Part shown: piece after piece, positions 1-52,683 of the stretch
How positions within the stretch are numbered: the first letter of the stretch is position 1
Layout: every line of letters begins with the position of its first letter
Assembly (NCBI GenBank): GCA_000697665.1
Contig: KL197721.1
Span: 28,400 to 92,399 of the forward strand
DNA from: Jaapia argillacea MUCL 33604
Lineage: Eukaryota > Basidiomycota > Agaricomycetes > Jaapiales > Jaapiaceae
Direction: 5' to 3'
DNA: 64,000 bases
Notes under the pieces: generated by a model
Database searches by the model: none
Told to the model about the DNA's origin: nothing
The model's input: only the letters and a program-made list of their open reading frames with translations
Program-made: the position numbers and the translations under genes

Positions 1-390
1 TACGTTCTCTCCCATTTTTCTATGTTACAGTGTACAGTCTGAAAAGCTGGTCCATGTATCTGCCAAAAATGCCTTACCTTTCCTACGCGCTTGCCCCTAC
101 CAGCCCCTACCTCGGTCCTCCTCGACCGGAACTCCTTTTAAAGAATCAGTTAGATGTCCTCCTCAGGCTCAAGGAAGGTCGCGTCGTCGACCTGGCAGTA
201 CACCTCTTGTGGTCAGCGCAAGCGAAAGGCCGGCGATGGACTTCCATGGGAGAATGTGCTCAAAAGGATGTCTGATTGCTTTTCGGGTGTCGGATCACAT
301 CCTGTATAGTACATGATTAGACTCTCGAGGGTGAAGCGCTGAAGCTGAAACGAACATGTCGTAACTCACCTGGCGAGGTTCGTCCCCACC
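1..390. other. Upstream stretch, no gene assigned
   Basis: Short open stretches exist on the + strand but none shows a recognisable domain. A frame around 180-300 reads as possible coding sequence up to a stop near 312, so the tail of a gene lying left of the window cannot be excluded. Confidence 0.3.
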
Positions 391-3300
391 ATGACCTCTG
401 ATCTTACTTCAACTCAGTCGCCTCCACTATCTCACTGGCTTATACCATCACAGAATATCGACATCTATCGAGACCAACCCCTGGAACTTGCACATTCATC
501 GGAGACGGGCAACAATTTCAAGGGTGTATTCCGCGGTAGATTGGTCGCCGTCAAAATCCTACCGAGTAACACGCCAGTGGCTGTGGGTTTAAATATGTCT
601 CCCACCATCACATTATCTTGACATGCCTTCAGAATATCTTCAAGCGTGAACTCTGGAAATTTGTCTTACACCCAAATATCCTCCAAGTTTTTGGCGTCTC
701 TACCTTGAATACGGACCCACCCTTTATTATCACTCAGTTATGCCCCAAAGGCAACGTAAACGAATTTCTCGCAGGGAATCCCGTCGCTGATAGGGCTTTA
801 CTCGTAAGTGTTCAGATTTCTTCGCGCGCGAACGTCTCGTCATTGTCATCTGATCCCCTTCCAGACTTACCAATGCATCCTCGGGATGAAGTACCTTCAC
901 GACGTGCGCACCTTCGCGTCTCACTCCATATACTTCTAACCTCACCTATTCAGCTCGGAATCGTTCACGGCCACCTCAACCCGAGCAATGTTCTGATTAC
1001 GGAGGATGGAGAAGCCTGCGTCGCTGATGCCGGTTTTATACAGATGATGCCCAGCAGAAACCCCAAGATGCATATGTATCTCAGTCCCGAAGCTTGGAAA
1101 GGGGTGTGTCCGTCAGAATTGTCTGTGATGTTCGTTAAATTCACATTTGAGCAAGATCGTCTACCTCCCGTCGGACGTATTCGCATTTGCTATGACGGCG
1201 TTTGAGGTATTGAATTCGCCGCATATATGCAGACGTCTTGACCCACATTCGCTCAGATATTCACGTCGACGCCACCTTGGGGTGTACTCTCAGAGACTCA
1301 AACCTACCAGATGGTTGTCAGGGAAGGGGATCGCCCGGACAGACCAGAAGCTGACCTTGCGCATGGCCTCACCGACATCAAGTGGGAGGCAATGGAAGCG
1401 GCTTGGCAGAAGGAATCTAGCCTTCGGCCTACATTCGACGAGATTGCGAACATGTGGAAGCGGCCAGAAGGTGAGAGTCGGGGCGACATAACGAGTCTTA
1501 ACCCCCGCTCCCTTGCTGATAACCTCGCCGGCAAGTCCCTTCGGAACTTGATTCGCCCCCTTGTTCACCTCAACCCATCTAGACGCAAGTCTTCATCGAT
1601 TGTCAATTGCCACTTTCCCCAATCTTTGGGAGAACCTTGAGCAGGACTTTGACTCGATGTCAACGATGACTGAGCGTCCTGCGGATCACTCCCCCTCGAT
1701 CGAAACCACCGCTCTTCCTGCGCATACTGGGCCACTTGCTGTCCCCGTCGATGATGTGATGTTTAAGGCTCTTGTCACGAGCACGTCAACTTCCGTCGAA
1801 GATTCATCACCAGGCTCGTCAGCACGTAGTACACGTCCACAGACTATATCGGAACTCGTTCAACGGGCCTTGGAAGAACCCTTTGATTCTTTCAAAGAGT
1901 TAAATGACTACCTCCGGGCGGCTGAGAAAGCTAGAGATGCAGGGAGAGATGCTATAATAGCGTGTGATTTGGAGAATGCTTTCGTGCAATTTGCGAAAGC
2001 TGCTACCATCGTTTTGGAGTGGTTACCTGCACATCGGGATTACACGACTCTGTTGACGCCATCGCAAAAGCATAATCTCGGATTGGTACGTACTCCCTAC
2101 CCATTTACTGTGGGTTGGTCTGTCGGCGCTGGTGAGATTCGATTGGTTGCATGGGATGGAGAGGCGGGTTGGCGTTAGTTAAGTTGGGACGGAAGGTGGT
2201 TGCATTGGCTCTGGTTCGATATCTTCGGGGATCAGTGGGGGATGACACAGATATGATCTGGTTTCCTACTTTACCTCTGATTTATGTCGTGAAGATCTGT
2301 TTGAGGCGTGCTGGAGGTGTTATCATCGGCGATCTGAAGGACGTCGCAGAACCCACGGCCTTTCATGGTATGCGCACGAGCGCCTCCGTAGCTAAACTTA
2401 GGCCAGGGACTTAACCCCCCCCGTCGAATGACTTTCACTTTCATCTTCCCTTCCTTACCCTCAATCATTTCTAACCTCCCACACTTCTCTTACAGAATGG
2501 CCAAGAGATCCTCAAGAAAATAAATAGTCTCAAACCGATTCTTGTCGAACGCCACGAACTATGGGTCGTATCCAACCCGTTCTCTTCCACCTCTTCCTTT
2601 CTCAAACCTCCTTACCAACCTCCATCACAAACACCTCAACAACAACCCCAAACAAACCTCTCCCCAGTACTCTCCACCAAAATCCGCGAATCTCCTGCTT
2701 CTCTAACCGTATGCGAAGCAGACGCTCGTAGAAATACCGATTCCCAAGCCCGTAGAGAGACAGAAGACAGAGCATGGAGGAGAGAAGATGAAGAAGCCGT
2801 TCGTTGTCGACAAGCTGAAGAGATCAACACTCGCAGGTTGATAGAAGCTGCAGAAAGAGTGGAGGACGCTTTTGCCGCCTTTGGTGTTCATCCCAGGGCG
2901 CATGGAAAGTTATCTGGGGGTGATTTGTTGGCTGGTAGGTTTGACGGGATGAGCGTTGGTGATGATCATGGGATGGGGGTTCAGTGGAGTCTGAGAGATG
3001 AGGTTTCGAGAGAGGACATGCCGGGCAGTTCGAGGGATGACGATGGGAGGGGAAGTGAACGGCAAGATGATGTGACAAGGAGGATGCAGGAGGGGAGGAT
3101 GCAGGAAGCTGATGCGATTTTGATGAGACTACAAGAAGTTGATGCGACTGCTGGGGTCAGTGGACTGGAACGCGCCGTTGTCCAATGTCACCACCGAAGG
3201 GTCTATTCTGACCCTTCCTCCTCCAACTCCCCCCCTCTCCAATCCACGTATCAATTTCCGCCACAGCAGCCCCAACCAAATCGCTCCGCTATATCCCCCA

Positions 3301-5508
3301 CAGACTTCCGCGAACCTTCTGTTTCTCGGACCCATAGTGAGGCAGAAGGCCTAGCATCGGGGCGAGAAAGCGCAGAAGCTTCTCTTGTCCATTATCGTAC
3401 CGGCAAGTTATCTTTTTGGTCCTCGATTAGCTTTCTTGTTCACCTCAACCACTCTAGACCGGGATCCGCTGCTATCATCACCCATGAATTTTCCCAACTC
3501 GACGGAGCATCTCGAGCAGACCTTCGACTCGATGTCAATCATGACTGAACTTCCTGCATATGGCTCTCCCTCGATCGAAACGAGCTCTCTTCCAGAGTAT
3601 ACCCCATTTGTTGTCCCCGTCGAAGATTCAGCATCAGGCTCCTTGGCACATACTGTCAGTCCGCCACCAAGTTATGTCAGTCCAGCTATCCGAAGGATAC
3701 ACTCACAATCTCCGTCCACTTCGATTGGTTATCACATCAATTCCATATCAAGCGCCAATCCCACCTCCCTTTCCCATAGCCATGGCCCTTCTTCAGACTC
3801 TGGTAAGTTCTCCAATCTGCTTCTGATTCATTCCATTCACCACCATCTTAGAATTCGTTTTCGTTTCAACTCCCCGACGAAGCGATGTTCAACGATCTCT
3901 AGGACACAGGCGGGTTCAATCGAGTCCACAACTCGAGCCTCGCCGCCGATATGCAGGGCTTTACGAGTACACGGAATCAGGATACCCCGACTATGAATCT
4001 TCCATACGTGGCTTGTCGGAGGGGCGCTCCTCAGAAGGGTGGTTAGCTCAGATGGATCGGAACAATCAACGAGAAACGCAACGTTCAGCTGAAGTGAATC
4101 AACCGAGCTCAGGGACCCAACCCGAAACAGCCAATGCGCTCCGTATGTGACCACCTCCCGATAACTCTACCTCACATCTATATCTTCATTCCAGAAGTGC
4201 AACGAAATGCTGTACAACTTGCCGCTACTCTCCATGCGAAGATCCTTACGGGCAGCACGCGCCCGGTGATAGACCAGTGTTTTCAGAACATTCAAACACT
4301 CGCGTTTCAGTCCGAGAAGGCTGCGAAACACCTCGTCATGGCCGGAGTTGTTCCCGACATTGTGAAGCTGCTGGGCCAACGACGCGAACTTGAAGATGTT
4401 TATGGCCTGGAACTAATTCTCGTAGCGCTAGGTGCATTAGCGTATGTTACATCTTCTTTCTTACCACCATCGGGTTGCTGATGACCGCAACATCACTAGA
4501 TGGGACGCTGACACTGCGACCATGATCCACGAGCAAGAGATATCTCCAACGTTAATCCAGATCATAATGGATTCATGTTCGGACAATATTTCGTCCTTGG
4601 CAATTTGGTGCATGAATCGAATGTGCTGGAGCTCAGAGTTAGCTTCCAAGTTGATCGAGGACGACTTCCCCAGCCTGCTAGTCCAGCAATATGCGGAAAT
4701 TGGTCAACTAAAGTCACGCTTCTCCGCCTGGTTTTTGGGTTCCCTTGCCTATACCAAGGCTCAGGCTGATATCCTTGCCGAACATTCCATCCCATGGTCT
4801 GCTCATTACCTTCTGGCTTGCGTCAGCGCCCCAAGGTCCCAGTCACACGACACGTGTGCGTCCCTCTTCCTCGTCGCTCGCATGGCTCGATCGACATCCT
4901 TGTCCCAATCACTGGTGCAAGCTGGTTGCGTCCCAGGGATCGTATACTACCTGTCGACATCATATTGCCCAAAGGTTCTCTATTGGAGTGCTGTTGCTGT
5001 GGGATGCCTACTGCATTTGGATGAACAAGACAGTGACAAATCCATCTCTGATGCATTGCTAGAGGCAGGTGTTGCACAGGCGCTAGCGCGGTTGCCTGAT
5101 GTTCTCTCTGCGAATCAAGTGGAAGCTCTCACCGCCTTTGCCATTGCAGTACAGCGAGTTGCATGGGCTGGGTCCAGAAGTGACAGTTGCAAGGCTTTGG
5201 TTGATGCAGGAGTAGTCGACCCGCTTCTGGCCGCTCTAAGAACAGCGGTTAGAATACAAAATCCAGAAGTACAGTATGAGTTGGTTATGGCAGTGGCCAT
5301 ACTTGGTGATTTCGGTGGGTGGGGTGTTCGGAAACAGTTGCGGGTCGGCGGTGCGTTGGACGTCCTCGATCAAATTAGGCCAGTGGGGCATCCCCATCTA
5401 CGGCAGGCCCGCAATAAAGCTATGGGCGCTGTTAGCTGGATCCCGTGGAAGATAAATCATGGTACGTATCATCCTTCTCCTCTACTTATGGGAGCACGAC
5501 GATTGTGA
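391..5508 (+). CDS. Composite protein: pseudokinase, AMSH N-terminal (USP8-dimerisation-like) module, ARM-like repeats
   Basis: Twelve GT-AG exons keep phase throughout: 391-582, 633-803, 865-903, 954-1103, 1156-1206, 1257-1470, 1583-2085, 2496-3396, 3458-3802, 3852-4142, 4195-4441, 4500-5508, giving about 1370 residues. Residues 1-272 form a protein kinase fold with VAVK intact. The catalytic loop reads HGHLNPSN instead of HRDLKPxN, and DFG is DAG, so it is probably a pseudokinase. Residues about 357-440 match the USP8/AMSH dimerisation region of the gene at 6768-10343, and exon 8 continues with its charged coiled-coil-like middle. No JAMM domain follows. Residues about 953-1370 are helical ARM-like repeats with alternating Leu/Ala. 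A linker is present twice, in exons 7 and 9, on either side of the AMSH-like part. The last exon could instead splice at about 5461 to 5537 and end at 5558. The alternative is two or three genes: if exon 8 is not spliced at 3396 it stays open to a stop at 3548, and an ARM gene could start at 3486. RNA is needed to decide. Confidence 0.6.
1583..1830 (+). repeat. Linker repeat copy 1 inside the composite gene
   Basis: About 250 bp around the acceptor at 1582, clearly similar to 3458-3640. Both copies have a CTCAAC branch-like site just before a CTAG or TCTAG acceptor, then encode the run LEQ-FDSMS-MTE followed by SPSIET. The intron tail from about 1530 is similar as well. The copies bracket the AMSH-like insert. 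Confidence 0.75.
3398..3640 (+). repeat. Linker repeat copy 2 inside the composite gene
   Basis: Partner of the repeat at about 1530-1830. The similarity begins inside the intron, at the shared word CCGGCAAGT (3400 versus 1529), and runs through the acceptor into coding sequence. Left of it the sequence is AMSH-derived. The breakpoint therefore lies at the start of the present intron 3397-3457, suggesting that the rearrangement itself produced this intron. Confidence 0.7.
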
Positions 5509-5558
5509 CTGAATTGTGGGAAGATACTGCTAGGAACATCTTCTACCCTTGGATGATG

Positions 5559-6767
5559 AGTCCTTACTGCTGTCCAGACTACCGACCATCATGCCTTCGG
5601 AGTCTGTGATTGGATTTGGACCCTGACATCCCAATGTACTTTCGTCTATGTATCGGTGATTCGGTTTGATAAAACTTTCCCCCCTTTTCTTTTGCCCAAA
5701 GTGTGACGTTTGCCCAGGATCACGTTCCAGTTCTACTGTCTACACATGCGTGCCATCTACCTTGATGAGCTGTCCCTTGCGCTGCCTTTCGGCTTGGAAA
5801 TATTAGTCAACGCATACACCCGATTGATCATTTTGACATATACACTGAGAGCTACAGCATGCTCTGGTGGCTCGATCATATAGTGTCGATGATGACGATG
5901 AATTTCATGGAACTGCAACGCACGACTACTGTAACGAGTACAGACGGGGAGCACAGGGCCAACTATCCCGAATATGTGGTACAAAGGCCTGAGGTGATCG
6001 AGTGGGTATAATCGGGCCCGGGTTGAGGAGAGGTGGTAGGACTGGATACTTGAATTTAACTCCGACGCATTTGTTTGTGCGAGGGGAATCCTGTTATCGC
6101 TCCACATTATGATGTACATCTCACATCCGCCAGCAAGGGGATGCTTGTTCAGATCCCTCAAGGTCCGTAAGTCATACGTACCATTACGAGATCTAGAGGT
6201 CCTTGCACAGTTTTCCGAGCGAAGCTGGTTTGGAGTCCTAAACACACACCTTGAGTCTGACGTATTCACTTCCTTGAAGTTAGAGGACTCTAACTTTCTC
6301 TATCCTCGTATACATGTGAACTGAGTGGATGACTCGCTGTCAAACCTCTCAGTTACTTGGACGTGCCCTGGCGGACGTTACTTGGAGTACTCAGACGACC
6401 ACTACATAGTATCATCCCACTAGTATAAGTGGGAAGCGCTTAATTGAAGAGGAGTACGTCCAGATGTCAATGCCAGCACCGCAAATGGTGGTCTTCCACA
6501 CGCAACCCGCTTCTTGTTGTGAACTACTCTACGCACCCATTGTATTTTCTCATTGCAGGATGCTGGAACCACCGGATAAGTACTCACCGTCATATGTAAA
6601 TGCGGAGTGGCGAACTGCTGGACATGATATATGGGGAGTAATGTACCGCCACAGCAGGCCCAAAAAGGCAAGACCGTAAGCATTCTTCGCTGGTCGACTG
6701 CGATTACAAGAAACCAGCCAAAGTCTCCATGCCTATCCTTCTTTCCTTCCATCATCTCGCTCAATAA
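5559..6767. other. Intergenic, nothing convincing
   Basis: A 170-codon open frame on the - strand (5757-6269) has no recognisable domain and an unremarkable composition, so it is not called. The last 60 bases before 6768 probably include the leader of the AMSH gene. Confidence 0.5.
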
Positions 6768-9700
6768 ATGAGTCACAGAACATCATATTCTTCCTCCCCG
6801 TCCTCCACCCTTATCCACAACCCTTCCGCCCTTTCCCCCTCATCGACACTAGTAAATTCTGGTCCTACTCGCCCCCTCCTCCCCAGCCTTGATTCCACAT
6901 CTTCTCGCCCTGGCGGCGGCGGCAACACAGGCAACACACGCCCAGCGACTATCGCAGAGCTCGCCCAACGTGCCTTGGAGGAATCCTTCGATTCGTCTAA
7001 AGAGCTAAAGTATTACCTACGGGCGGCTCAGAAAGCTAGAGATGCGGGGAGAGATGCTATAAGAGCGGGTGATTTGGAGAATGCTTTCGTGGAGTTTGCG
7101 AAAGCTGCTACCATTGTCTTGGAGAGGTTACCTGCACATCGGGATTACACGAGTCTGTTGACGCCTTCGCAGAGGCATAATCTTGGATTGGTACGTACTT
7201 CCTACCTATTTGCTGTGGGTCGGTCGGTGTTGGCGAGATTTGATTAGTTGTATGGATGGAGAGGCGGGTTGGGTATTGGTTGGGTGAAGACGAGAGGTGG
7301 TTGCCTCGAGTCTCGTTCGATATCGTCGGGGATCAGCGGGGGGTGATCCAGATTTGTTCTAATTTTTTACTGTTTCCCTCTGAGTTATGTCGTGAAGATC
7401 TGCAGGAGACGTGCTGGAGATGTTATCATCGACGATCTGAAGGACGTCGCAGAACTGATGGCCTTCCATAGTATTAGCGGACGAGCGCCTCCATAACTAG
7501 GTCAGGGACCTAACCTCCCGCCTCGAATGACTCATCCTTTCTTCTTCCTTTCCTTTCCCTCATTTCTAACCTCCCAAATTTATTTTGCAGAACGGCCAAG
7601 ACATCCTCGACAACTTAAGTAGACTCAAACCTACTCTTGTTGAACGCCACGAACGATGGGTCGCATCCAACCCTTCCTCTTCCGCCTCTTCCTCTCTCAA
7701 ACCCCCCTACCAAACTCCATCACAAGCACCTCAACAACAACCCCAACCAAACCTCTCCCCAATATCTCCCACCAAACTTCGCGAATCTTCCGCTTCTCAA
7801 GTCGTACGCGAAGCAGAAGCTCGCAGAGACGCCGATTCCCAAGCCCGTAGAGATGCCGAAGACAGAGCGCGGAGGAGAGAAGGTGAAGAAGCAGTTCGTC
7901 GTCGACAAGCTGAAGAGATCAATGCTAGGAGGTTGGCAGAAGCTACTGAAAGAGAGAGGGGCGCTACAGCTGCCGCTTCCGCTGCTCTTGGTTTTAATCC
8001 CGGTTCGTATGGAAAGTCGTCTGGGGGTGATTTGTTGGCTGGTAGGTTTGATGGGATGAGAATTGGTGACGGACAGGGGATTGCGACGCAGAGGAGTCCG
8101 AGGGATGAGTTGGGAAGGGGTTCGTCCAGAGAGGATATGCAGAGGAGTTCGAGAGAGGATGTGAGTAGGAGTTTGAGGGATGATGATGGGAGGGGAAGTG
8201 GACAACAAGATGATCTGAGGAGGAGGATGGAGGAGAGGAGGAGACAGGAAGCTGAAGGAATTTTGAAGAGACAACAAGAAGCTGATGCAGCCGCTCGGGC
8301 TGTCGCGTCTGGTGCACCACCTACTACCTCCGCCAATGCGAGTATCCGGCCTGAAGCGCAAGGACCGAAACCTCTCGGGTTGAGCGCTTCTTATCCAAGT
8401 TTACCGCCTCCGGTTAGCTCGTCTCAGCAATCAGCGATGCATTACCAGGAGCAGGAGGGGATCGCGCGGAGGCAGAGGGAAGCGGATCTTGCTGCCCGCT
8501 CGAGTCGACTCCAAGGACAGGGTTATGGTTCGAATCCGGTATCAATTCCGCAACAGCCTCACCATTCAAGCTCTGCTCCGAATTTCTCGAGTTCGAGACA
8601 ATCTGCTTCGGGTTATGACCAAGAAGAGAGAGCGAGGAAACAGAGAGCTGCCGAAGCTGCTGCTCGTGCTGCTCTTGATCCTAACACCACTCTTCGTGGC
8701 AAAGTATCGACTGCCTCTGCTTCTTCCTCTGCTTCGTCAAATTGGACTGCTCCAAACAATCCTCCGCTTACCGCCAACAACTCAAGCTCCTCTGTGATGC
8801 CGGCGCCGACTGCCGTCAGTTCTGCTCAATACGCGTTTTTGGAGTCGCATCATAAGAGTGGTATCCCGATTATGCCGTTGGAGAGTCCGACGAAGTATGA
8901 TGATGATAGTTCGACTGATGCTTCTGTAGCCGACGAGCCGTCGTCATCTCCTTCGGTTTTGTTGGGTGCGAGAGGTGGACATCATTCCAGACAGGCTGCT
9001 GATTCCACGCCTACTAGGATGCCAAGGCGAACGTACGTCCCGACAAGTTCTCGTTCCTCTACCCTCTTCGATCTGTGACTGTATGCTGAATCCTTTGTTT
9101 TTTATGTTTTCTGTTTGCGTAGGGCATCGTATCCGCCACCGATAACAACAACATCTCCTCCACCTGCCGAAGTGGGTCTTATTCGGTACCCGTCCTTAAT
9201 GACCACCCACCAACTGTCTCAGGGGTACACACCCTCTCTACAGTCGATGTTCTTACAATCTATGGGCCCTATAAACCACACCACCACACCACTCTTGTTT
9301 CAACCTCACCCGCCAACTAGTGGGTTGTATTCGGGGATCCTTCCTCAGCAGTCATCTTCGGCGTTTGAGATGCCTGTCGCTCAGCACCATCCGCCTCATC
9401 CACACTACCAACAACAGCCACAACAATCGATTCAATACCCCACGTATAACTCCCGTACACCCGTTTCGAATTCTCGTCCTCCTCCTCAATCCCAGCCCCC
9501 ACCTACCACCCAACCACCCGAACCCGAACCACAAGCTCCCCGTATCACTCGTGCTGATTCCAAAGTCGATAATAACCCACGCGAATTGAAAACTGTTAAC
9601 CTCCCTCGAGAATGTTTACCTCGATTCCTTTCCATTGCTGCTGGCAACACGGCTAGGAATCGGGAGACGTGTGGGTTGTTGCTTGGGAAGGACAAAGGAC

Positions 9701-10343
9701 ACAAGTTCGTGGTTACGACGTTGTTGATACCGAAACAACATTCGACGAGTGATACGTGTACTATGGATGAGGAGGAACTTGTTATGCAGTTTACGGAGGA
9801 GAGGAATTTGATTACTTTGGGTTGGGTGAGTATATGCGGTCCTTTTGGGTCTTGGGATGGTTGATAACTGATGCATCTTGTAGATCCATACGCATCCTAC
9901 TCAGTCATGTGAGTGTTTTGTGTGTGATGGACGCTATAGACGAGTGTCCTGAGTGTTTCCTAGGTTTCATGTCCTCGGTGGACCTGCATACCCATGTTGC
10001 GTTCCAGAGAATGCTCCCCGAATCTTTCGCAGTCGTCTGTGCTCCCACTTCCACGCCAAAGTAAGCACACTCTGCCGTCTCTTGCCGTTATCGTCCACCT
10101 GGAACTAACCGTGATGAAGCTTTGGTATCTTCCGACTGACCGACCCTCCTGGTCTTCAAACCATCTTGAGTTGTAACGCTAAGGAAGCCTTCCATCCCCA
10201 TCCTGACCTACCCATATATACCGTGAGTCCTCCTTCTCCCTTCAACCGCCGTCGCAGATGAGTTGATGCTCGTTGGTCAGGACGCCGACAAGGGTCATGT
10301 ACAGATGAAGGACACCTCATTAGAGATCGTGGATTTACGTTGA
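6768..10343 (+). CDS. AMSH/STAMBP-like JAMM deubiquitinase (Sst2-type)
   Basis: Seven exons keep phase (6768-7190, 7591-9032, 9123-9825, 9884-9908, 9964-10060, 10120-10222, 10281-10343) and give about 951 residues. Residues about 65-141 form the USP8/AMSH dimerisation (MIT-like) region. A long middle part, rich in Gln, Pro and Arg/Glu repeats such as RRxAEExARR, is probably coiled coil and disorder. The C-terminal MPN+ domain has the conserved Glu in ETCGLLLG and the zinc motif [14 protein letters not shown], so it should be an active zinc isopeptidase. AMSH enzymes cleave K63-linked ubiquitin chains on endosomal cargo with ESCRT. The protein is much longer than human AMSH because of the middle region. 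The first intron (400 nt) is unusually long, and the partial copy at 2086-2495 has one of similar size. The start is the first Met ahead of the dimerisation region. Confidence 0.92.
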
Positions 10344-10583
10344 AGGTTTGGTATGGATCTTTCCTTCGTCTATCTATTTATGACAGTCATTGTTGCTTTA
10401 CTCCCATAATATCGAGCTCATCGTGCATGACCATCATCGAATTCAAGTCATTGTTGTACCTTGTAGTCTTGTCGTGATCTGTGGTTGTACATCTGTTGTA
10501 TTCCATTGACTGTCAAATCTATTATACATGGTGGGTTATTATACAGGGTCCTTGTAAGAGGCGAACTTGAGAGTCTAACAAAA

Positions 10584-13500: not shown

Positions 13501-16247
13501 TGTGGGATAAGTTGGCATGGGCTGTTTAGCGTGCGGAACTCGTTGGTAAGAACGGCTTCATAACCGTAACGTAGAGGCTAAAGATAGGGGAGTAGGATGA
13601 GTTCGGTTGGTCACATGGACGAGAAGGATGGCACGAACATCAATATAGGTGATCCACTTCAACGCCCCAATCATGTATGGCTTAGGAATGTTATAGCCGG
13701 TATAAAGGACGAGACCGAGCATAACGACACCGCCAAATGCCTGAGAGGGAGCGGGATCGCTGAACGCTGCAGCGAGGAGCCTAAACCACGACTTGAGAAC
13801 CTGGGACATGATGAAGATGACTTGAAGATAGACATTATTAGGAAGGTTATGAAGGATGGCTAAAAACGATGAACATACAGAGGTAGAAAACGCTGGTGGA
13901 GGTGAGGTATTAGCGAGGTGATCCAAAAGGTTAGCATGGTGAGACGCACAAAAATTGAGAAGCGCTCCGTTGAAGCCCAACTAAGAAGTAGAGCACGACA
14001 GCGAATACGGCTAAGGTGATGAAGGTAATCGGTATATCGACCAACGTTAAGGCGAGCCCCTCAATGAAGGGATGGTACATCGCTGCCATGTGATGTCTAT
14101 GCACAATGGGACGTTGTGCGAACAAGGCAGGGATTTCGGACATGGCTGTAAGAGCTGAGAACAAGATGGCGCTGTCCAGGAAGGGATCATCAGTAAAGCA
14201 CGGTTTCCCGGGAAGCTATTAACGTACAAGAAAAGGACGCCTCCGCGGGAGTAGGCCGAAGTCGAATCAGGCACCTTGTAGAAGACGGTGCCCATGATGA
14301 TGCCTTGGATGAGGAAGGTTCTATAGGGATGACTTATCAGTGACCAGAGGCAAATCAACCGCACATTCGACGACTTACGCGATGGTGATAATCTGTGCTC
14401 CAAGGTTGCCCTTCAGGATTTGCACCCTCCTCACCATCACAGCCCTCGTCTGCATCGCCAAGGAAATGGTATAAGGACTCTTCTTCTTCATACCTTTCGC
14501 ACGTTCAGCTCGCGCGCTTTCCATATAAGCCGTCGCGACCTCGGGTTTCCCGACGAATTCAGCTCGATAGGATTCGATGTCTTCTCGGTTGAGTCGACCG
14601 GCGAGTGAATTCTTGAAGTAGGCCGCAAACTCTGCAGAAGTACGTGGAACTGGGTGGTCGACGTTCGATCGTGGAATACGGCCGTTCGGGTCCGTCACTG
14701 GTGGCAAGTGTTAGTGAAAAGGATGTCTAACAAGACGAGACACTGGACGTACCGGCTACCAAGAAATCGGCAGTGGTCTGCCTATCTGCAGGTTCGTATC
14801 CAAGATCAATGAAATATTGTCGAGCAGCGTTTGCAGGGCCAAAGTACGCCATCCGGCCCTCGTAAAGAACACAGACTTTATCGAACATTCGGTATAGGGA
14901 CTCTCCAGCTTGGTACATTGACACGATAGTGGTGGAATGAGCGAGATCGGTCGCAATACGAAGCGCTTGAATGAACTCTTGTGCAGTGGACGCATCAAGG
15001 CCACGAGTGGAGCTGAGGCGATCGTGATCATTGGAATCAGTTTCGCCTGTGACATGACAGAGGAAGATGGAGTAACGCACTTATCCCAACAAGTCAACAG
15101 AGCCCTGGTAGCTAAGGTCTCAGCGATAGATACCCTCTTCCTCTCCCCTCCACTAACACCATGCACACTCGCATTCCCCACCTTCGTCTTCCTCGCATGT
15201 TTCAACCCAAATATCGTCAAAAGGACCTCTGTATACACCTTGGCAAAGTCTTCTCTGCTGAGTCCCGGGAACCTAGAACGAGGCGTCCTGGTCTTTACAG
15301 CAAAGTTCAAAGTCTCTTCGACGGTGAGAGTAGGGAAGTGAACGTCGTCTTCGGGACAGTATTGTACGTCACCGCGGTAGTGATTATGGATATCGGCTGG
15401 TGAGAAAGCATCGTAGTGGACTTCGCCTTCGACTGATCGGTACTCCTTGCGGTGATTGGCTAGGACTTTGAGGAAAGTCGAGCAACCAGCACCTGGTCGA
15501 CCGAGAACGGCTAAAGTATAGGGGAGTAAATTTGAGAAGGAGAGAAAAGAACAATTAGAGGAGTAAGTACCTAGCATTTCTCCGGGTCTGACAACACCTT
15601 CAAAACCGTTCAAAATGTCGCACAACGGGGGATGGCGAGCCTTGTGGATATACTTCAAAACGTTGTAAGGATTGAGAACGGATCCAAAAGTCGTTTGGTA
15701 TGATGCCAGAGCACCTAACCCCACAACCCGTAGATCTTCGAACATAACGCCAAGCTCTCTACCCTTGATATCGTGCTCTTCCTGTCTACACTCAAATACG
15801 TTAGCGTGGAACGAAGTGTAGGAATCGATGGAAAGCTCACTTCCTGATGACATTCTTCAGGACCTTTTCGAGATTGAAATGACCTTCGTCCATTGTAACG
15901 TCGGAAAACACGCTTGTGGTACGTCGAAGAGTAGATGTTCTCCCCGCCGTGGATAGGCGGCTGAGAGCTCGGGTTAAACCTTGCACACCTGGAGGATCGA
16001 AATGGTTGATAGGAACGTGTTTGGTATGCGATTTGCGCCCTCTGAAGGGACGACGACCGTGGAAGAGTCTTCGTTTCCCATTATCCGCGACGGGCTCTGC
16101 AACGTCGCCAGGCGAGTCATCGTGCGACTCTGGCTCGTCCTCAGCATCACTCAATCCGTTCTGGTCCCCATTACCATCAACCGACAGGGAAGGAATAGCA
16201 GTGTGATCTTCTTCGTGAGCCTCTTCTGGTGGAGTAGAATCCCCCAT
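10584..16247 (-). CDS. PDR-type full-length ABC transporter (ABCG)
   Basis: A gene of many exons encoding a (NBD-TMD)x2 fungal pleiotropic drug resistance transporter of the plasma membrane. NBD1 has the fungal-type Walker [10 protein letters not shown] (Cys in place of Lys), the signature [13 protein letters not shown], and [10 protein letters not shown] restored by splicing. NBD2 has the canonical GESGAGKTTLLN across an intron, a degenerate signature region ([16 protein letters not shown]) and [10 protein letters not shown]. This asymmetry is normal for PDR proteins, in which NBD1 is not thought to hydrolyse ATP efficiently. The last exon ends after the conserved FRIRQWR region. The acidic N-terminal 90 residues are less conserved. 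The start at 16247 is the first Met before the ABC N-terminal region. Family members export azoles and other xenobiotics, but the substrate here is unknown. Confidence 0.93.
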
Positions 16248-19069: not shown

Positions 19070-19108
19070 TCGACGCCCTTCTGTTCCTAACGCAACCCCT
19101 CACCAACC

Positions 19109-20062
19109 ATGCCCCAACTACACTTTACAACACTCGACGTCTTCACCACCACCCGTTATGCAGGGAACCCTCTCGCCATCGTCGAAGTTCCTTCATCCGT
19201 CACCCTTACTCCTTCCCAGGAACAAAAGATCGCTAAGGAGTTCAACCTTTCCGAGACCGTCTTCTTCTACGTCCCCAACGCCACTTCGGCGGAAGGAGAA
19301 GCGAGGATTAGCATCTACACCACAGAGCAAGAACTACCATTCGCGGGACATCCCACTGTAGGGACGACGTACTTCTTGCTGGAGTTGAAAAAGTTCAAAA
19401 CGGATAACGGGAGAGCAGCCTTGAAGACACAATCAGGTCGCATCCCTATCACTTACGATCCTCACACATTATTGGCGTCGGTGAACGTCGCCCACGACGT
19501 CTTGATCCATCGCCCTTACACCGACGTGCAGCACCTCGCCGAGGTACTCGGATTGACACCACCCGATATCGTCATTCCCTTGGAAGGTGGAGATGGGGTG
19601 GGACTGGCCTCGATCGTCAAAGGCATGACTTTCCTCCTTGTGGAGTTGCGAGATGTCGGGACGTTGGGAAGGATCAAAGCCAATGGTCAGGAGATCGTCG
19701 TGTTGGGAAGCGGGGTCCGTGCAGGAGAAGCACCTTGGCTCGCTGGAGGGTTTGTCGGCATTTATTGCTTCGTCCTTGACCCAGAAAGTGGGAAAGATGG
19801 GCACAGGAAGCTTCGAACTAGGATGTTCAGTGGTTCGTTGGAGGATCCTGCTACTGGTAGTGCTGCGTGCACTCTGGGTGCGTGGATGAGTTTGACGAGA
19901 CCGCTCGCAGGGAAGGAGGAGAGGTTCGAGATTACGCAGGGAGTCGAGATGGGAAGGAAGAGTGACATTATTGTTAGTGTTGTTAAGGGGGAGCAGGGGT
20001 TGGAAGGGGTGAAGCTAGAAGGAAGTGCTGTGAAAGTTATGGAAGGAGTTTTGGAAGTTTGA
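19109..20062 (+). CDS. PhzF-family isomerase-like protein
   Basis: A single uninterrupted exon of 317 residues. It has the family hallmarks: N-terminal LDVFTTTRYAGNPLAIV, FNLSETVFF with the catalytic Glu of PhzF, the FAGHPTVGTTYFLL loop, and the second-half motif EDPATGSAACTLGAW. PhzF-fold proteins are diaminopimelate-epimerase-like; outside phenazine-producing bacteria the substrate is usually unknown, and no phenazine cluster is present here. Its last 110 bases are copied at 23863-23972 as the left edge of a tandem duplication. Lack of introns is unusual for this window and could point to retroposition or bacterial origin, but it proves neither. Confidence 0.9.
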   Translation: MPQLHFTTLDVFTTTRYAGNPLAIVEVPSSVTLTPSQEQKIAKEFNLSETVFFYVPNATSAEGEARISIYTTEQELPFAGHPTVGTTYFLLELKKFKTDNGRAALKTQSGRIPITYDPHTLLASVNVAHDVLIHRPYTDVQHLAEVLGLTPPDIVIPLEGGDGVGLASIVKGMTFLLVELRDVGTLGRIKANGQEIVVLGSGVRAGEAPWLAGGFVGIYCFVLDPESGKDGHRKLRTRMFSGSLEDPATGSAACTLGAWMSLTRPLAGKEERFEITQGVEMGRKSDIIVSVVKGEQGLEGVKLEGSAVKVMEGVLEV

Positions 20063-25583: not shown

Positions 25584-26620
25584 TCACGCGGACGATGCCG
25601 CAATCAGCTCGTTCCAAGGCGGAAGATCGAACAAGGATGGAAGTTTGTCCCATATTATCTGGCGAGCCGCCTCAAACCTCTGCTTTCCACCAGCAATACA
25701 AGCGGGACACAGATCATCGTTCCATTCTTCATTCCAATCTTCGAGTGCCCAGCTTTGGGGCAAAGGATTCCAAAGATTGATAAACAAGGCCCTCCTCGCC
25801 TGAGTGCAATCGTCAGCGCTGCCACAGGGAGTAAGGTCATGTAGCCATGCAAACGAAGCGGCAGCTTGCTCCCATAAGACCTTTTCTTTACCGCCAAGAT
25901 AACGTCGCTGGTTGTCAGAGGACAGCGTGGCGATCGTTCCATCGTTCCGTTGTTCGCCTTCCAGGCCCCATATTAAATCGTTGTTGAGGCATGTATAAAA
26001 AGCGATGGGAAGGATGGATAATACTCCAGTCTCTGAAGCGAGGGATATTGCATCGATGGTGACCGCTGGTTCTTCGCAGATTGCCACGTAGCCGTCAATG
26101 GCGAGGAGTTCTTCAAGAGAGGATGGCCATTCTTTTTGAAGGAGCGCTATGGAATCGTCTCGCAAGTGATCAATGCCGTACTTCTTGCCCAGGCGCAGCA
26201 AAGCACTGACAACTGCGATCGGTTGAAGAACATCGGAGCGGAAATATCTAAGTCGTCGTACAACAGGTATAAGGCTGGATGAAATCCAGCGACGTGGAAA
26301 CAATTAGTGATCACTCACCGCCTGTTATGGAGAGCTCGTAGCATGTGTTCCACCTCTTCAGCAGTGTCCGATAAATGCACTACTGGACAACCGTCGATGG
26401 TCTCTGAGGCAGAAGGGGTGGAAAGCGAGAACATGTCGCGAAATATTGGGGAGTTCTCATACAAGATACCTTTGAAAATCTTGAACTGCGTTGAACCGGC
26501 CACCAGGATGACATTGCCGTCGTCGTACCAAACATCGGATCTACGCAGTGACTGGGCGGTGTCGTCGGCGGTCGTATTGATTCGAGGACGTTTTGGAACC
26601 CTGTCAAGGTCGGATGACAT
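25584..26620 (-). CDS. BTB/POZ family protein A', intact
   Basis: Exon 1 is 26620-26319, exon 2 is 26247-25584; phase is kept and the product is 321 residues. Residues about 30-100 form the BTB fold (SDVWYDDGNVILVAGST, SPIFRDMFSL, GCPVVHLSDTAEEVEHMLRAL). The middle is helical and includes LLRLGKKYGIDHLRDD. The C-terminal third has CGSADDC, LW-P-P, LCPAC and WDKLPSLFDLPPWNEL, shared by all family members here. BTB proteins of this kind often act as adaptors for cullin-3 ubiquitin ligases; for this fungal family that is inference only. The intron sits at the family's fixed place, just before YFR. Confidence 0.88.
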
Positions 26621-27055: not shown

Positions 27056-28052
27056 TCAAGATGTTCCGATGAGCTCATTCCACGGCGGCAGGTCAAAGAA
27101 AGATGGCAGTTTGGACCACGCCCCCTGCTTCCCTGCTTCAAAGGCCTCCCTCCCGAAGTCAATACAAGATGCGCAAAGTCCAACTTCCCACTCCGCGGAC
27201 CACGCATCCAGGATGCAGAGCTCCGGACTAGGGCTCCAGAGGCTTGCAAATAATCGCAACTTCTTCATTTCACAATCCCTCCTCGTCACTCCACAATTGC
27301 TTGATGTGTGAAGCCATCCAAACGAAGTCTCTGCTTGAAGTTGGATGAGCTTTTCTTTCCCAAATATACATCGTCGCTGATCCTCCGAAGATAGGATCGC
27401 AGTCGAATGGTCTGATCTGATCTTCCCTTTTAGAAGATAAGTTGAAAAATCATCGCCGAGGCAAAAGCAGTAAAATGCAACCGGAAGAGTGGAGAGCATC
27501 TTGGTCTCCCATGCCAACGCGATTACATCAAGTAGGTTGCCTGGAGCTTCCTCTATAGCAACCCAACCATCAGGCAACTTTTCATACTCTCCGAGAGAGT
27601 GGGGAAATTCGGACTGCAGGCGAGCTGTGGCATCCTCCACGAAATGTGTGATATTGTACTTCATGCCAAGGCGGAGGATGGCACCAATGACAACAATGGG
27701 CTGGAAGCCTTGGTCCCGGAAGTATCTAAAGTTTCGTAGAATCAGCAGGGAAAGTCATACATGGGCCATCCACTTACCTCCTATCGTGAAGGGCGCGCAG
27801 CATGTGCGAAACATCGGCCGTGGTGTCGGATAAGTGCACGACTGGGCAGCCGTCAATGGATTCTTCAGGTACCTCCGTGGACAACGAGAACATATCTTGA
27901 AAGATCGGGGAGGAGGCAGACAAGATGCCCCGGAAAACTTTGAACTGTGTCGATTCGGCGATCAGGATGACATTGCCATCGTCGAACCAGACGTCGGCAC
28001 TGCGAATGAGCGGTTGAACATCATCGGTACATGCGCGCTTTGTCGCAGGCAT
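27056..28052 (-). CDS. BTB/POZ family protein B', intact
   Basis: Exon 1 is 28052-27778, exon 2 is 27725-27056; phase is kept and the product is 314 residues. The N-terminus is short and basic, then comes the BTB domain (ADVWFDDGNVILIAESTQFKV, IFQDMFSL, GCPVVHLSDTTADVSHML). The helical middle includes LRLGMKYNITHF, and the C-terminal module has CGVTRRDC, LCASC and WSKLPSFFDLPPWNEL. It is the complete parent of the broken copy at 23010-23870. Function is unknown beyond the likely protein-interaction role of the BTB fold. Confidence 0.88.
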
Positions 28053-37858: not shown

Positions 37859-37930
37859 GGGCACTTGGCACAGTGGTAGCGCGCACGCTTTGCATGCGTG
37901 AGGTCGGGAGTTCAATCCTCCCAGTGTCCA
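37859..37930 (+). tRNA. tRNA-Ala (anticodon TGC)
   Basis: Seventy-two bases with a full cloverleaf: acceptor GGGCACT/AGTGTCC (one G-T pair), D arm with A box TGGCACAGTGG, anticodon stem CACGC/GCGTG around loop TTTGCAT (anticodon TGC), T arm GGGAG/CTCCC with TTCAATC, and discriminator A. No intron. Confidence 0.95.
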
Positions 37931-42276: not shown

Positions 42277-44252
42277 TCAATTCAGCCTGATATTCCGATC
42301 ATGCTTCACCGAAACTGACTCTGGTCTCGTTGACCTATTCGTCCGATGTTCCCAGATAGGATCGACATCTGGTCCGTCCAAGTCACCTGCACCATCCCAT
42401 CCCCAACACCATACTGCAGATGAAATGTGAGTGGAAGATTATGATTGGGGAAGGTGAGGGGACATACCGGATTCTGGGCCAGGGAGGAATTCTAATGGTT
42501 CGGCTTCCTCTTCTACGAATAACCGGTCGTGAGGACCAAACCATGAGCGATCTTGAGGGTCTGTGCGCGGGTCGTCTGGTAATCCTCCAAGGCGGACGTA
42601 TCCCCGGATGGCGGTCAAGTTTCTTCGTATCGGATGGATAATATCGTATACTTTCTGAAAAAAAAAATCGGGTCGTTAGTATGCGCCAACAAATTGAATG
42701 ACCTCAAGCAAGCCAACCAACCCGATCGTAAGCCAACTTGACTCTAGGAACCATTAAAATCCTCCCATACCCCGCATCCCAATAATCATTACAAACCAAA
42801 CTACACTCGCTAGCCGAACACTCTCCCTCCGTGATCCTAGCCATCCTGAACCGGACGTGAGGGGGAGAGTAGATGGGCGCGGGATCGAGGATGGCGATAC
42901 CGTTCCAGCAGGATTGGACTTGGACTGGAAGATGTCTTTGGAACCGATCCGAGGACTCTTCGTGGTGGAATACAGTTTCGAATGGGGCGTTTTCGAGTGC
43001 GGTTCCGTTGAGGTCTCGGGCGACCCAATTGTCGTAGAACACGGGGGCACCCTTGATGAACGAGGCGTTAGCACAAGAAAGATGGGAGGGGGTTGAAGAC
43101 TCACGATTTCGTCGTGATACATGTAATCTGCCGCACATGTAATCCCAGCGTTGTTCCTTCGGCTTTGCCAAAGCAGCTCCAAGATATCGTCCACACAAGG
43201 TAGAATGTCGTTCATGAAGATGATGGAATCGAACACCTCATTGTTCGCATCCCTCAACTCGTACAACGGTCCAAACGCCGCATTCCGCACTTCTGCCAAG
43301 TACTCGATACGATGATTGAATGCACCCCTAGTACGCATGGAGGTCCGAATCGTGACCCGCATCCCAACACTCCTAGTGAGGGCATCGAATATCCGTAAAA
43401 GAGCCTTCGTCTGATCCGTCGATCCATTCTCATAAATGGAGACGTAGACGTTTTGGTAACCCACAACAGCAGCAACTCTAAACAGCGTGGCGAAAAGATC
43501 GGGAATGACGTCGAAAGAGTTGTACAAGTTGATGGCGAAAAAGTACTTGTGATCGTCCCCACTCAAATCACGTCGGATATTTCGGATGGAGAGATCTTCT
43601 TGAGCAGGGGAGAAACCTAGTCCGCTGAACCAGGATGAGTGGGACTGACGGTCGTGGCCGATGAGAGTTGCGTAACGTTCGCGGGCTTGGTTGGCGTATA
43701 AGGGTTGGGCGTGTCGGGTGCATTCTTTGGTGTAGTGAGGGGAGAGTGTGGTTAGGAGTTCGAGGACGCGATGACGTTGTTCAATGCTTGGGAGGGGGAT
43801 GGCGTGTCGTGATGAAGGGGATGTGGGGCCCGAGATTGGTCTCCAGGTCGGAGGGGCGGGCTAGACGTGAATACGTTAGTTCTCGCAATGACGTTATTTT
43901 TTCCGAGAGGAAACGAAGTCGAAGTTCCATGCACTGGAAGAACAGGTGGAAATCAACGTAGCTGCCGCCTGTTTCAGAACGTCGAATGGTTCGGGCGGTC
44001 TCAACGATCGAGGACCTCCTGTCCCAGATATGAAACATTCGACGTGCCTACCAACACCTCTCTCGAACCAGCCTGAACCCCATTTCTTTCTTTCCTCCAC
44101 AGCAGACATCCCCAGGATGGATGAACACTCACATTCAGAGATATGATTTTCGGTAACAAGAAACCACACAGTAGACCAATGAGCAGGGCTAGTGGTGGGG
44201 GTATTCGTTTCAGCTGGGCCACAAACGGTATATCGTCGTCCTTGGGGCGCAT
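42277..44252 (-). CDS. GT69-family alpha-1,3-mannosyltransferase (CMT1/CAP59-like)
   Basis: A gene of several exons. Exon 1 (44252-44133) encodes 40 residues with a signal anchor (LALLIGLLCGFLL), giving a Golgi type II protein. The catalytic part has YQNVYVSIYENGSTDQTKAL, RIEYLAEVRNAAFGPL, IIFMNDILPCVDDILELL, ITCAADYMYHDE, FYDNWVARDLNG, VQSCWNGIAILD and ECSLVCNDYW, all typical of the Cryptococcus CMT1/CAP59 family. The MNDILPC segment is where metal or donor sugar would be expected to bind. The last exons read VYDIIHPIRRNL and end DVDPIWE... to a stop at 42277. The exact borders of the second exon (near 44075-43860) are uncertain. Its start is 493 bases from that of the divergent SGNH gene. 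Confidence 0.88.
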
Positions 44253-50400: not shown

Positions 50401-51269
50401 NNNNNNNNNNNNNNNNNNNNNNNNNNNNNNNNNNNNNNNNNNNNNNNNNNNNNNNNNNNNNNNNNNNNNNNNNNNNNNNNNNNNNNNNNNNNNNNNNNNN
50501 NNNNNNNNNNNNNNNNNNNNNNNNNNNNNNNNNNNNNNNNNNNNNNNNNNNNNNNNNNNNNNNNNNNNNNNNNNNNNNNNNNNNNNNNNNNNNNNNNNNN
50601 NNNNNNNNNNNNNNNNNNNNNNNNNNNNNNNNNNNNNNNNNNNNNNNNNNNNNNNNNNNNNNNNNNNNNNNNNNNNNNNNNNNNNNNNNNNNNNNNNNNN
50701 NNNNNNNNNNNNNNNNNNNNNNNNNNNNNNNNNNNNNNNNNNNNNNNNNNNNNNNNNNNNNNNNNNNNNNNNNNNNNNNNNNNNNNNNNNNNNNNNNNNN
50801 NNNNNNNNNNNNNNNNNNNNNNNNNNNNNNNNNNNNNNNNNNNNNNNNNNNNNNNNNNNNNNNNNNNNNNNNNNNNNNNNNNNNNNNNNNNNNNNNNNNN
50901 NNNNNNNNNNNNNNNNNNNNNNNNNNNNNNNNNNNNNNNNNNNNNNNNNNNNNNNNNNNNNNNNNNNNNNNNNNNNNNNNNNNNNNNNNNNNNNNNNNNN
51001 NNNNNNNNNNNNNNNNNNNNNNNNNNNNNNNNNNNNNNNNNNNNNNNNNNNNNNNNNNNNNNNNNNNNNNNNNNNNNNNNNNNNNNNNNNNNNNNNTGTG
51101 GACGTGGAGACTCAGAGCCAAGGTTGGAAGAGTAGAGGGTAGCATACACGAGCAGGTGACCGAGAGGGGGATGGCGGTGGTGGTGGTTGTGCGTTAAGGA
51201 GCGTGCGCGTGTTGCTCCGGGTGGTTCGGGGTTGAGGGTGTTCTTCGTAAATTCGAAGTCCAGAGACAC
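50335..51269 (-). CDS. Possible gene interrupted by the gap
   Basis: Right of the gap an open frame starts at 51269 (MSLDFEFTKNTLNPEPPGAT). Left of the gap a frame reads VRIASLSWIVMKALGN up to a GTAAGT donor near 50340. Whether they belong together cannot be told. Confidence 0.25.
50401..51096. other. Assembly gap (696 Ns)
   Basis: Unknown bases. Related degenerate repeat words stand on both sides (50011-50028 and 51443-51460), so the missing part is probably repetitive. Confidence 1.
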
Positions 51270-51631: not shown

Positions 51632-52683
51632 ATGTCGGACGACAAATCTCGAGTGAAGCGTCGAAGAACAATTTATAGCCCAAGCTCAGATACCGATGCT
51701 GACCAGCGGGTCCGTCGATCCAGCATTTGGTTCGATGACGGGAACATTGTTATCATTGCCGAAGACACGCACTTCAAAATCTACGGGGGATGGCTCTCTT
51801 CGAGATTTGCCTCCATTGCTTTTGCAGATATGTTGTCGCAAACCTCTCCCACAGATCTCCTTGACGGTTGTCGGATCCTGCGACTATCTGATTCTGCGGA
51901 CGACATTACCCATCTGCTGAACGCATTACTCGATAGGCGGTAAGCTGCCTGCTTCAGGGTTTGCAACTGAAACCAATCTTCGTCTGACACAACATCCTCA
52001 GGTATTTCCGCGACGAAGGATCCCAACCATTCCCCATTGTGAAGGCGCTTTTACGCCTGGGAAAGAAGTATGGCATTGATCATTTGTGGGAGGACGCCAA
52101 GTCTCGCCTGCAGACGGACTTTCCACACCGACTCGAGGAATGGGACGAGATGGCCGGCTGGGTCGCCATTAGTGGATCTCTCAGTGTCCAGATTGATGCC
52201 ATAGGTCTTGCTTGGGAGACCGGCCTGCTCTCAATCCTACCCGCGGCCTTTTACTCGTGTTGCTACGAGAAAGACTATCTGGAGGTCGCCTTCACTGGAT
52301 CGCGTCGCCCCGATGGATCAATTGCCAGACTTTCGCAAGAAGACCAGGCCCGGTTTGGGAAAGGGAGACGGGAGCTACTTCGTGCCCAGGCGAAGTACTC
52401 GTTTAGTTGGCTGGATCCAGAGAACTTGACGAATAATCCGACTGGATGCGTAACAGTCATCGGTTGTCGAAAAGTGAAGGATAACCTTTTCCGACGGCTA
52501 TGGAGCCCCGTTCCGGATGTTTGGGCTCTCGAGGCATGGAATGTGGAGTGGGAGGTCGATCTGTGCTCCCATTGCACTACGTCTGCGAAAAAGAGCTTCA
52601 TCAATGGCCAGAAGCAGATTTGGGATGAGCTCCCTGCCATTTTTGAGCTACCGCCGTGGGCCGAGCTCATGCGAGAACCGTGA
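51632..52683 (+). CDS. BTB/POZ family protein E, intact
   Basis: Exons 51632-51939 and 52002-52683; phase is kept and the product is 329 residues. A basic N-terminus (RVKRRRT) precedes the BTB domain (SSIWFDDGNIVIIAEDTHFKI, GCRILRLSDSADDITHLLNAL). The middle has LLRLGKKYGIDHLWEDAKSRL, and the C-terminal module CVTVIGC, LCSHC, WDELPAIFELPPWAEL. The residues after HFKIYGGWLSS differ from the other copies (an extra short segment before ADMLSQ). Same intron place as the rest of the family. Confidence 0.88.

Follow-up and report, generated by a model that had tools for sequence, protein, structure and literature searches.

A predicted chimeric gene joining a pseudokinase, a protease-free AMSH copy, and armadillo repeats in Jaapia argillacea

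Gene model and domain content of the locus

The genes considered here lie on the forward strand near the start of a 64,000-nucleotide stretch of the genome of the basidiomycete Jaapia argillacea MUCL 33604 (contig KL197721.1, positions 28,400 to 92,399), which we refer to as the window and whose own numbering is used throughout. The locus at 391-5508 is a predicted chimeric protein-coding gene in which a copy of the N-terminal part of AMSH, a deubiquitinase whose full-length gene lies downstream, is placed between a kinase-like domain and armadillo repeats (Table 1). Judged from its sequence, the gene arose in a way well known from evolution, but its choice of partners is unusual and its history unusually readable. 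Its 12 GT-AG exons, rebuilt from the sequence, join in phase to give 4113 nt and 1370 amino acids (aa) with no internal stop, a model identical to that of the original prediction. The composite nature claimed there, namely, a pseudokinase, an AMSH N-terminal copy without the protease, and ARM-like repeats, agrees with motif loss, Pfam matches, and matches to the sequences of solved structures.

The best Pfam match of the protein is PK_Tyr_Ser-Thr (E = 1.3e-26, aa 51-266), and ABL1-type kinases are matched by the kinase part among solved structures (best E = 4.6e-17). In an alignment with ABL1, the VAVK lysine, the alphaC glutamate, the catalytic-loop asparagine, and the aspartate of DFG/DxG are kept, the first two and the last being residues of the nucleotide pocket. 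Because the catalytic-loop aspartate is replaced by histidine (HGHLNPSN) and DFG reads DAG, neither of which is expected of an active kinase at the aligned positions, the domain is predicted to be a pseudokinase, one that may still hold nucleotide. A possible relative is FslK, a kinase lineage near the tyrosine kinases that is expanded in Agaricomycetes, whose catalytic residues are mostly conserved and in which only 16 of 241 members carry extra domains (Zhao and others, PMC3937382). The chimera likewise has a fungal kinase domain related to tyrosine kinases, as its best Pfam match indicates, but, unlike those mostly complete kinases, it has lost the catalytic aspartate and gained two domains, and membership in FslK is only a lead, drawn from Pfam and PMC3937382. 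An unusually large tyrosine kinase-like (TKL) set is described in a kinome survey of Laccaria bicolor (PMC2838846).

At the other end of the protein, the C-terminal part matches importin alpha (E = 3.4e-7) and Vac8 (E = 9e-4) among solved structures. A single-sequence model of 4501-5460, which is most of exon 12, retrieves designed armadillo proteins in a Foldseek search (E = 2.8e-6), the model having a mean predicted local distance difference test (pLDDT) score of 62 and nearly all of its first 130 residues below 50. On these matches we class the part as an armadillo-repeat domain, though the Pfam armadillo models fall below their cut-offs (ARM_ARMC5, 0.0054; ARM_PUB, 0.38). The likeness to Vac8 and importin alpha is general only and amounts to a repeat family in common.

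The middle part derives from the neighboring gene, whose product matches Pfam USP8_dimer (29.9 bits) and JAB (67.6 bits, E = 1.1e-18) and contains GWIHTHP...SSVDLHTH, which we take to be the JAMM motif. The main copy, 1831-3156, aligns to AMSH 6936-8299 at 79.6% identity over 1380 columns (blastn, E = 0.0), with about 5.1 kb between the two. Like AMSH (STAMBP; Sst2 in Schizosaccharomyces pombe), the chimera has a MIT/USP8_dimer region, a charged helical arm, and the intron, but it lacks the first 56 aa of AMSH and the whole JAMM protease and is fused to kinase and armadillo parts; of the features of an AMSH deubiquitinase, it has the N-terminal region and not the JAMM domain. The proposal that the protease was left out is borne out by the finding of no Pfam JAB match at E <= 1 in the 1370-aa protein. 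The extent first proposed for the copy, about 1830 to 3390, stands as far as 3156; beyond that point, 3178-3327 belongs to a second copy that is not collinear with the main one.

Within the window, no further copies were found beyond those described here (blastn with 1-5600 as the query, E <= 1e-3, and with 6500-10500, E <= 0.01), and tblastn of the protein at E <= 1 gave one further match (23.7%, E = 0.94). Searches for relatives in viral contigs gave 5 pattern matches in one search and 0 in another, with 0 confirmed, in a collection that is not fungal; those in prokaryote genome contigs gave 177 pattern matches with 0 confirmed, in a collection that likewise is not fungal and is silent on fungi. 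In the open-licence literature, no paper describing this domain order was found by title or start of abstract.

Table 1. Positions of the features of the chimeric gene, its AMSH parent, and other elements of the window
Feature	Position	Strand	Basis or remark
Chimera exons 1-6	391-582, 633-803, 865-903, 954-1103, 1156-1206, 1257-1470	+	gene model
Chimera exons 7-12	1583-2085, 2496-3396, 3458-3802, 3852-4142, 4195-4441, 4500-5508	+	gene model
TKL-type predicted pseudokinase domain, exons 1-6	391-1470 (~aa 1-273)	+	Pfam, ABL1 alignment
Intron 6	1471-1582	+	3' part 1528-1582 duplicated at 3400-3457
R1, first host linker exon copy, 5' part of exon 7	1583-1830	+	blastn, alignment, shuffle test
MIT/USP8_dimer coding part from AMSH, in exon 7	1831-2085	+	85 codons, 83% protein identity
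AMSH intron carried in copy	2086-2495	+	410 nt against 400 nt at 7191-7590
AMSH-derived end of MIT region and charged helical linker	2496-3156	+	blastn, alignment
Second, apparently older AMSH linker copy, same frame	3178-3396	+	blastn 3178-3327, weaker to ~3395
Symmetric phase-1 cassette, exons 7 and 8	1583-3396	+	503 + 901 = 1404 nt
Intron 8, apparently born at the junction	3397-3457	+	donor at insert edge, acceptor from duplicated host intron
R2, second host linker exon copy (exon 9)	3458-3802	+	homologous to R1 over ~3400-3652
Exon 10, linker	3852-4142	+	gene model
Armadillo-repeat domain and stop, exons 11-12	4195-5508	+	importin alpha, Vac8 matches
AMSH parent gene	6768-10343	+	7 exons, 951 aa, USP8_dimer and JAB
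ABC transporter-matching open reading frame	14759-15856	-	Pfam
PhzC-PhzF protein-matching open reading frame	19091-20059	+	Pfam
tRNA gene	37859-37930	+	sole Rfam match at gathering score within the window
CAP59-type mannosyltransferase-matching open reading frame	42757-43860	-	Pfam
Run of N, assembly gap or masked stretch	50401-51096		

History of the AMSH-derived insert

The main copy carries an AMSH intron (82.5% identity over 395 aligned sites), and therefore the copying took place at the DNA level; a retrocopy origin is rejected on the same ground. At about 400 nt, this AMSH intron has several times the length usual in the two gene models, where 13 of 17 introns measure 49 to 61 nt. An RNA hosted in the intron was considered as a reason for its length and conservation and was rejected (best Rfam E = 0.46, none at the gathering score), and no unusual folding was found at 2250-2400 within it (z = 0.10). 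The divergence of the carried intron (0.20) is below the synonymous divergence (dS) of the adjacent MIT exon (0.44); differences at fourfold sites number 8 of 34 and 11 of 63.

Direct repeats flank the insert at 1528-1828 and 3400-3652 (blastn and alignment), each running from the 3' part of an intron through the acceptor into the host linker exon. The duplicated intron parts agree at 78% of 55 aligned sites, and the protein alignment of the two linker copies, R1 and R2, scores 147 against a maximum of 65 in 2000 shuffles; their dS of 0.57 to 0.65 (95% interval, 0.27 to 1.27) is not datable against either AMSH layer. The repeat next to the armadillo part includes half of the same intron that is found downstream of the kinase. 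It is therefore very probable that, when the insertion took place, splicing already linked the armadillo part to an exon upstream, presumably one of the kinase, and the two parts probably formed one gene by then. R1 also has an internal duplication at 1745-1828, with CCGTCGATGAT at 1745 and CCGTCGAAGAT at 1793; the motif is single in R2, at 3617.

From these features, we would reconstruct an ancestral gene in which a linker joined a TKL-type pseudokinase to an armadillo domain and into whose linker exon a copy of the MIT and coiled-coil part of the neighboring AMSH gene would have entered as DNA. As the sequence reads, host linker and intron are duplicated around the insert, which supplied it with a second acceptor of the same phase and made the AMSH part an in-frame cassette of two exons.

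The insert appears to have at least two layers. The stretch 3178-3327 matches AMSH 7637-7798 (68% identity, E = 6e-10) out of line with the main copy, and the translated sequence of 3156-3395 scores 142 against AMSH, with a shuffle maximum of 75 (2000 shuffles). Over the same AMSH stretch, dS is 1.26 (0.73 to 2.52) for the apparently older copy and 0.20 (0.09 to 0.38) for the main copy. A single event for the whole insert is therefore not favored, the layers differing in dS, though the value for the older one comes from 66 codons. Either the locus acquired AMSH sequence two or more times, or gene conversion from AMSH has rewritten the main copy.

Reading frame, constraint, and splicing of the insert

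Three kinds of evidence bear on whether the copied part has been translated. The first is the pattern of indels: in a MAFFT alignment of the main copy with AMSH, the exon indels measure 12 and 36 nt, and those of the intron measure 1, 2, 2, 4, 1, 6, and 4 nt. If half of the indels are assumed to have arisen on each lineage, the intron rate predicts about 7 frameshifts in the 915 exonic nt of the copy, and the probability of none is about 0.001. The second is the lack of stops among the copied codons, which has probabilities of 0.004, 0.017, and 0.03 if 156, 120, and 100 substitutions, respectively, fell on the copy. The third is the ratio of nonsynonymous to synonymous rates (dN/dS), a measurement proposed with the original prediction, which between the main copy and AMSH is low in the MIT exon (0.19; bootstrap range, 0.09 to 0.36) and indicates weak constraint in exon 8 (0.65; 0.45 to 0.94). 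By codon position, the differences number 9, 6, and 20 in the 85 codons of the MIT exon and 41, 30, and 50 in 220 codons of exon 8. A simulated neutral copy has as few replacements in the MIT exon with a probability of 0.02 to 0.09, depending on transition bias and parent constraint, and a simulated copy with a dN/dS of 0.3 does so with a probability of 0.71 to 0.95. For the older copy, dN/dS is 0.29 (0.13 to 0.52), estimated, like its dS, over only 66 codons, in which P, Q, and S are abundant.

Several points weigh against translation of the copy. Besides the high ratio in exon 8, the probability of a stop-free copy rises to 0.065 and 0.11 if 78 and 60 substitutions, respectively, are placed on it; blastn, which divides the exon gaps further, places two opposite 1-nt gaps that cancel out in exon 8 and two more of this kind in the older copy; at the end of the older copy, where similarity fades, MAFFT leaves a 5-nt gap; and G+C by codon position does not discriminate exons from introns. 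To say that a dN/dS of 0.19 rules out a neutral copy would be too strong, as a simulation with assumed shares gave P values of 0.06 to 0.85 for shares of 0.8 to 0.5 and 0.0002 for a share of 1.0. A neutral copy would be compatible with dN/dS alone, and also with the stop test if few changes fell on the copy side, and gene conversion from AMSH could likewise have kept the copy open. In the isolated-domain comparison, the USP8_dimer score of the copy (27.8 bits) is below that of the parent (35.4 bits), which suggests more change on the copy lineage.

These same points are what would be expected if the insertion disrupted the gene and left a recent relic in decay, with a frame that chance or conversion from AMSH has kept open: dN/dS in exon 8 is 0.65, the copy stands 7.6 bits under its parent, the neutral-copy and no-stop probabilities reach 0.09 and 0.11, and the kinase has lost a catalytic residue. 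We nevertheless consider a relic improbable, given that all 12 exons are free of stops and frameshifts, that the frameshift test gave a P of about 0.001, and that the apparently older layer, with a dS of 1.26, is still open at a dN/dS of 0.29. Taken together, the evidence favors translation of the copy, the MIT part being constrained and the coil only slightly so, though conversion from AMSH could also have contributed. Retention of the reading frame since the insertion has statistical support.

Which protein would be made depends on the splicing of the insert. The donor at 1470 is adequate (9% of GT dinucleotides score as high). The donor at 3396 (GTACCG), at the edge of the insert, is a difficulty for the full-length model, with a score of -2.86, second worst of the 17 donors of both genes and reached by 35% of the 590 GT dinucleotides in 1-10500. 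The predicted join of 3396 to 3458 is in phase and open, yet it is not unique, since an in-phase alternative at 3336 (GTGAGG) scores better (0.38 against the other 16 donors; 11% of GT as high); its use would shorten the coding sequence to 4053 nt and the protein to 1350 aa. A GC-AG donor (GCAAGT near 3400) was discarded, as its phase into 3458, worked out by hand, would break the frame. Retention of intron 8, 7, or 6 would yield 790, 470, or 328 aa, respectively. As the acceptors at 1583 and 3458 agree in phase and the combined length of exons 7 and 8, 1404 nt, is a multiple of three, the cassette is skippable in frame, the skip from 1470 to 3458 giving a 902-aa kinase-armadillo protein. The intron so formed would span 1987 nt, compared with 49 to 61 nt for most introns of the two genes, so skipping may be rare.

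It is accordingly conceivable that only part of the chimera is made, be it the 790-aa pseudokinase-AMSH-N protein, the 902-aa kinase-armadillo protein, or an armadillo protein started at the in-frame ATG at 3484 within R2. The weak donor GTACCG, with an intron 8 open to 790 aa upon retention, and the in-frame skip both lend themselves to this reading. The better in-phase donor at 3336, the homology of acceptor 3458 to acceptor 1583, the length of the skipping intron, and the armadillo exons, which are still open, tell against it, and we regard a partial product as a tentative and rather unlikely outcome.

Possible role at ESCRT-III and its meaning

USP8_dimer is Pfam's name for the region that the chimera has taken from AMSH. 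As an isolated domain, its score exceeds the Pfam cut-off of 24.6 bits, and the AMSH-like part matches only two sequences of solved structures at E <= 10, both of human STAM-binding protein (2xze, E = 1.9e-4; 9le4, E of about 2e-4). In human AMSH, the corresponding region is a MIT domain that binds the tails of ESCRT-III (endosomal sorting complex required for transport III) proteins, 10 of 12 of them, with CHMP3 the tightest (dissociation constant, 0.011 uM), and a helical extension is proposed to keep the protease off the ESCRT-III polymer (PMC9313428, PMC9477494). Three of the five AMSH residues listed as contacting CHMP3 (E72, Y80, and K107; PMC9313428) are identical in copy and parent. 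On the other side, both have Q in place of K88, and E104 is replaced by N (copy) or S (parent); the full-length protein scores 21.6 bits for USP8_dimer (2.6e-4), below the cut-off, and a predicted structure for the MIT exon (mean pLDDT, 69) found no match at E <= 0.001 (best E, 1.7), with the USP8 N-terminal structure 2a9u only at rank 39 (E = 6.7).

The original prediction had placed a dimerization module on ubiquitin cargo, which is not the best reading of a region that corresponds to the ESCRT-III-binding MIT domain of AMSH; by analogy, we favor the docking of a pseudokinase scaffold on ESCRT-III over action on ubiquitin cargo. In humans, RPS6KC1 and RPS6KL1 combine MIT with a predicted pseudokinase and bind CHMP3, RPS6KC1 binding also IST1 (PMC9477494). 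The chimera similarly couples a MIT domain with a predicted pseudokinase and could act alike at ESCRT-III, but its kinase matches a tyrosine-kinase/TKL profile, its MIT domain comes from AMSH, and armadillo repeats follow; the resemblance lies in the presumed mode of working. Multivesicular-body sorting in fission yeast depends on Sst2, the homologue of AMSH (PMC2885615).

We therefore propose a chimeric coding gene with an AMSH MIT cassette kept in frame, whose product would be a noncatalytic scaffold docked on ESCRT-III, and we hold the chances of this proposal to be about even. The AMSH-derived MIT domain would dock the protein on endosomal ESCRT-III polymers, with the helical arm as a spacer, and the pseudokinase and armadillo parts would recruit a partner or compete with AMSH for ESCRT-III; because JAMM was not copied, no deubiquitination is expected. 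A more elaborate version, in which the docking module was taken up at least twice at the same spot, is possibly skippable, and serves a scaffold that competes with AMSH and tunes sorting while recurrent recopying keeps the pair similar, seems to us possible but doubtful.

A decoy role, also raised originally, is possible. In its most specific form, an integrated decoy, the chimera would be a pseudokinase protein of immune type bearing a copy of AMSH, with AMSH itself the target of parasites or selfish elements. Copying of a neighboring gene without its catalytic end, apparently more than once, would suit such a decoy, as would a comparison with wheat, where kinases are reportedly fused or duplicated into unusual multidomain proteins (Lr9, PMC10260399; Sr43, PMC10260397; and Pm57, PMC11153570). 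The wheat proteins belong to plant immunity, and the comparison is by description only; moreover, the MIT part is the conserved part and not a fast-evolving one, and we consider an integrated decoy very improbable. A noncatalytic scaffold at ESCRT-III remains our preferred interpretation.

Elsewhere in the window, a home-made motif (such as YFRD..QP...I..LLRLG) is matched six times, on the minus strand at about 22227, 23678, 26249, 27724, and 32044 and on the plus strand at about 52003, which suggests a repeated gene family, perhaps BTB-like; open reading frame pieces with the motif at 25587-26303, 27059-27754, and 51988-52680 have no Pfam match at E <= 0.001. Of 10 open reading frames tested in the window, 7 have no Pfam match at that threshold, and the 3 that do are those listed in Table 1.

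New genes formed by domain shuffling are usually observed long after the event. Here, about 10 kb still contain the donor and the recipient together with the bracketing repeats and the carried intron, so that the steps of a gene birth, from insertion into a linker through a duplicated acceptor and a cassette to a kept frame, can be read. If translated, the chimera would be a fungal case of the MIT-pseudokinase pairing that two human proteins display (PMC9477494), and it would tie a mushroom-type TKL kinase to ESCRT-III.

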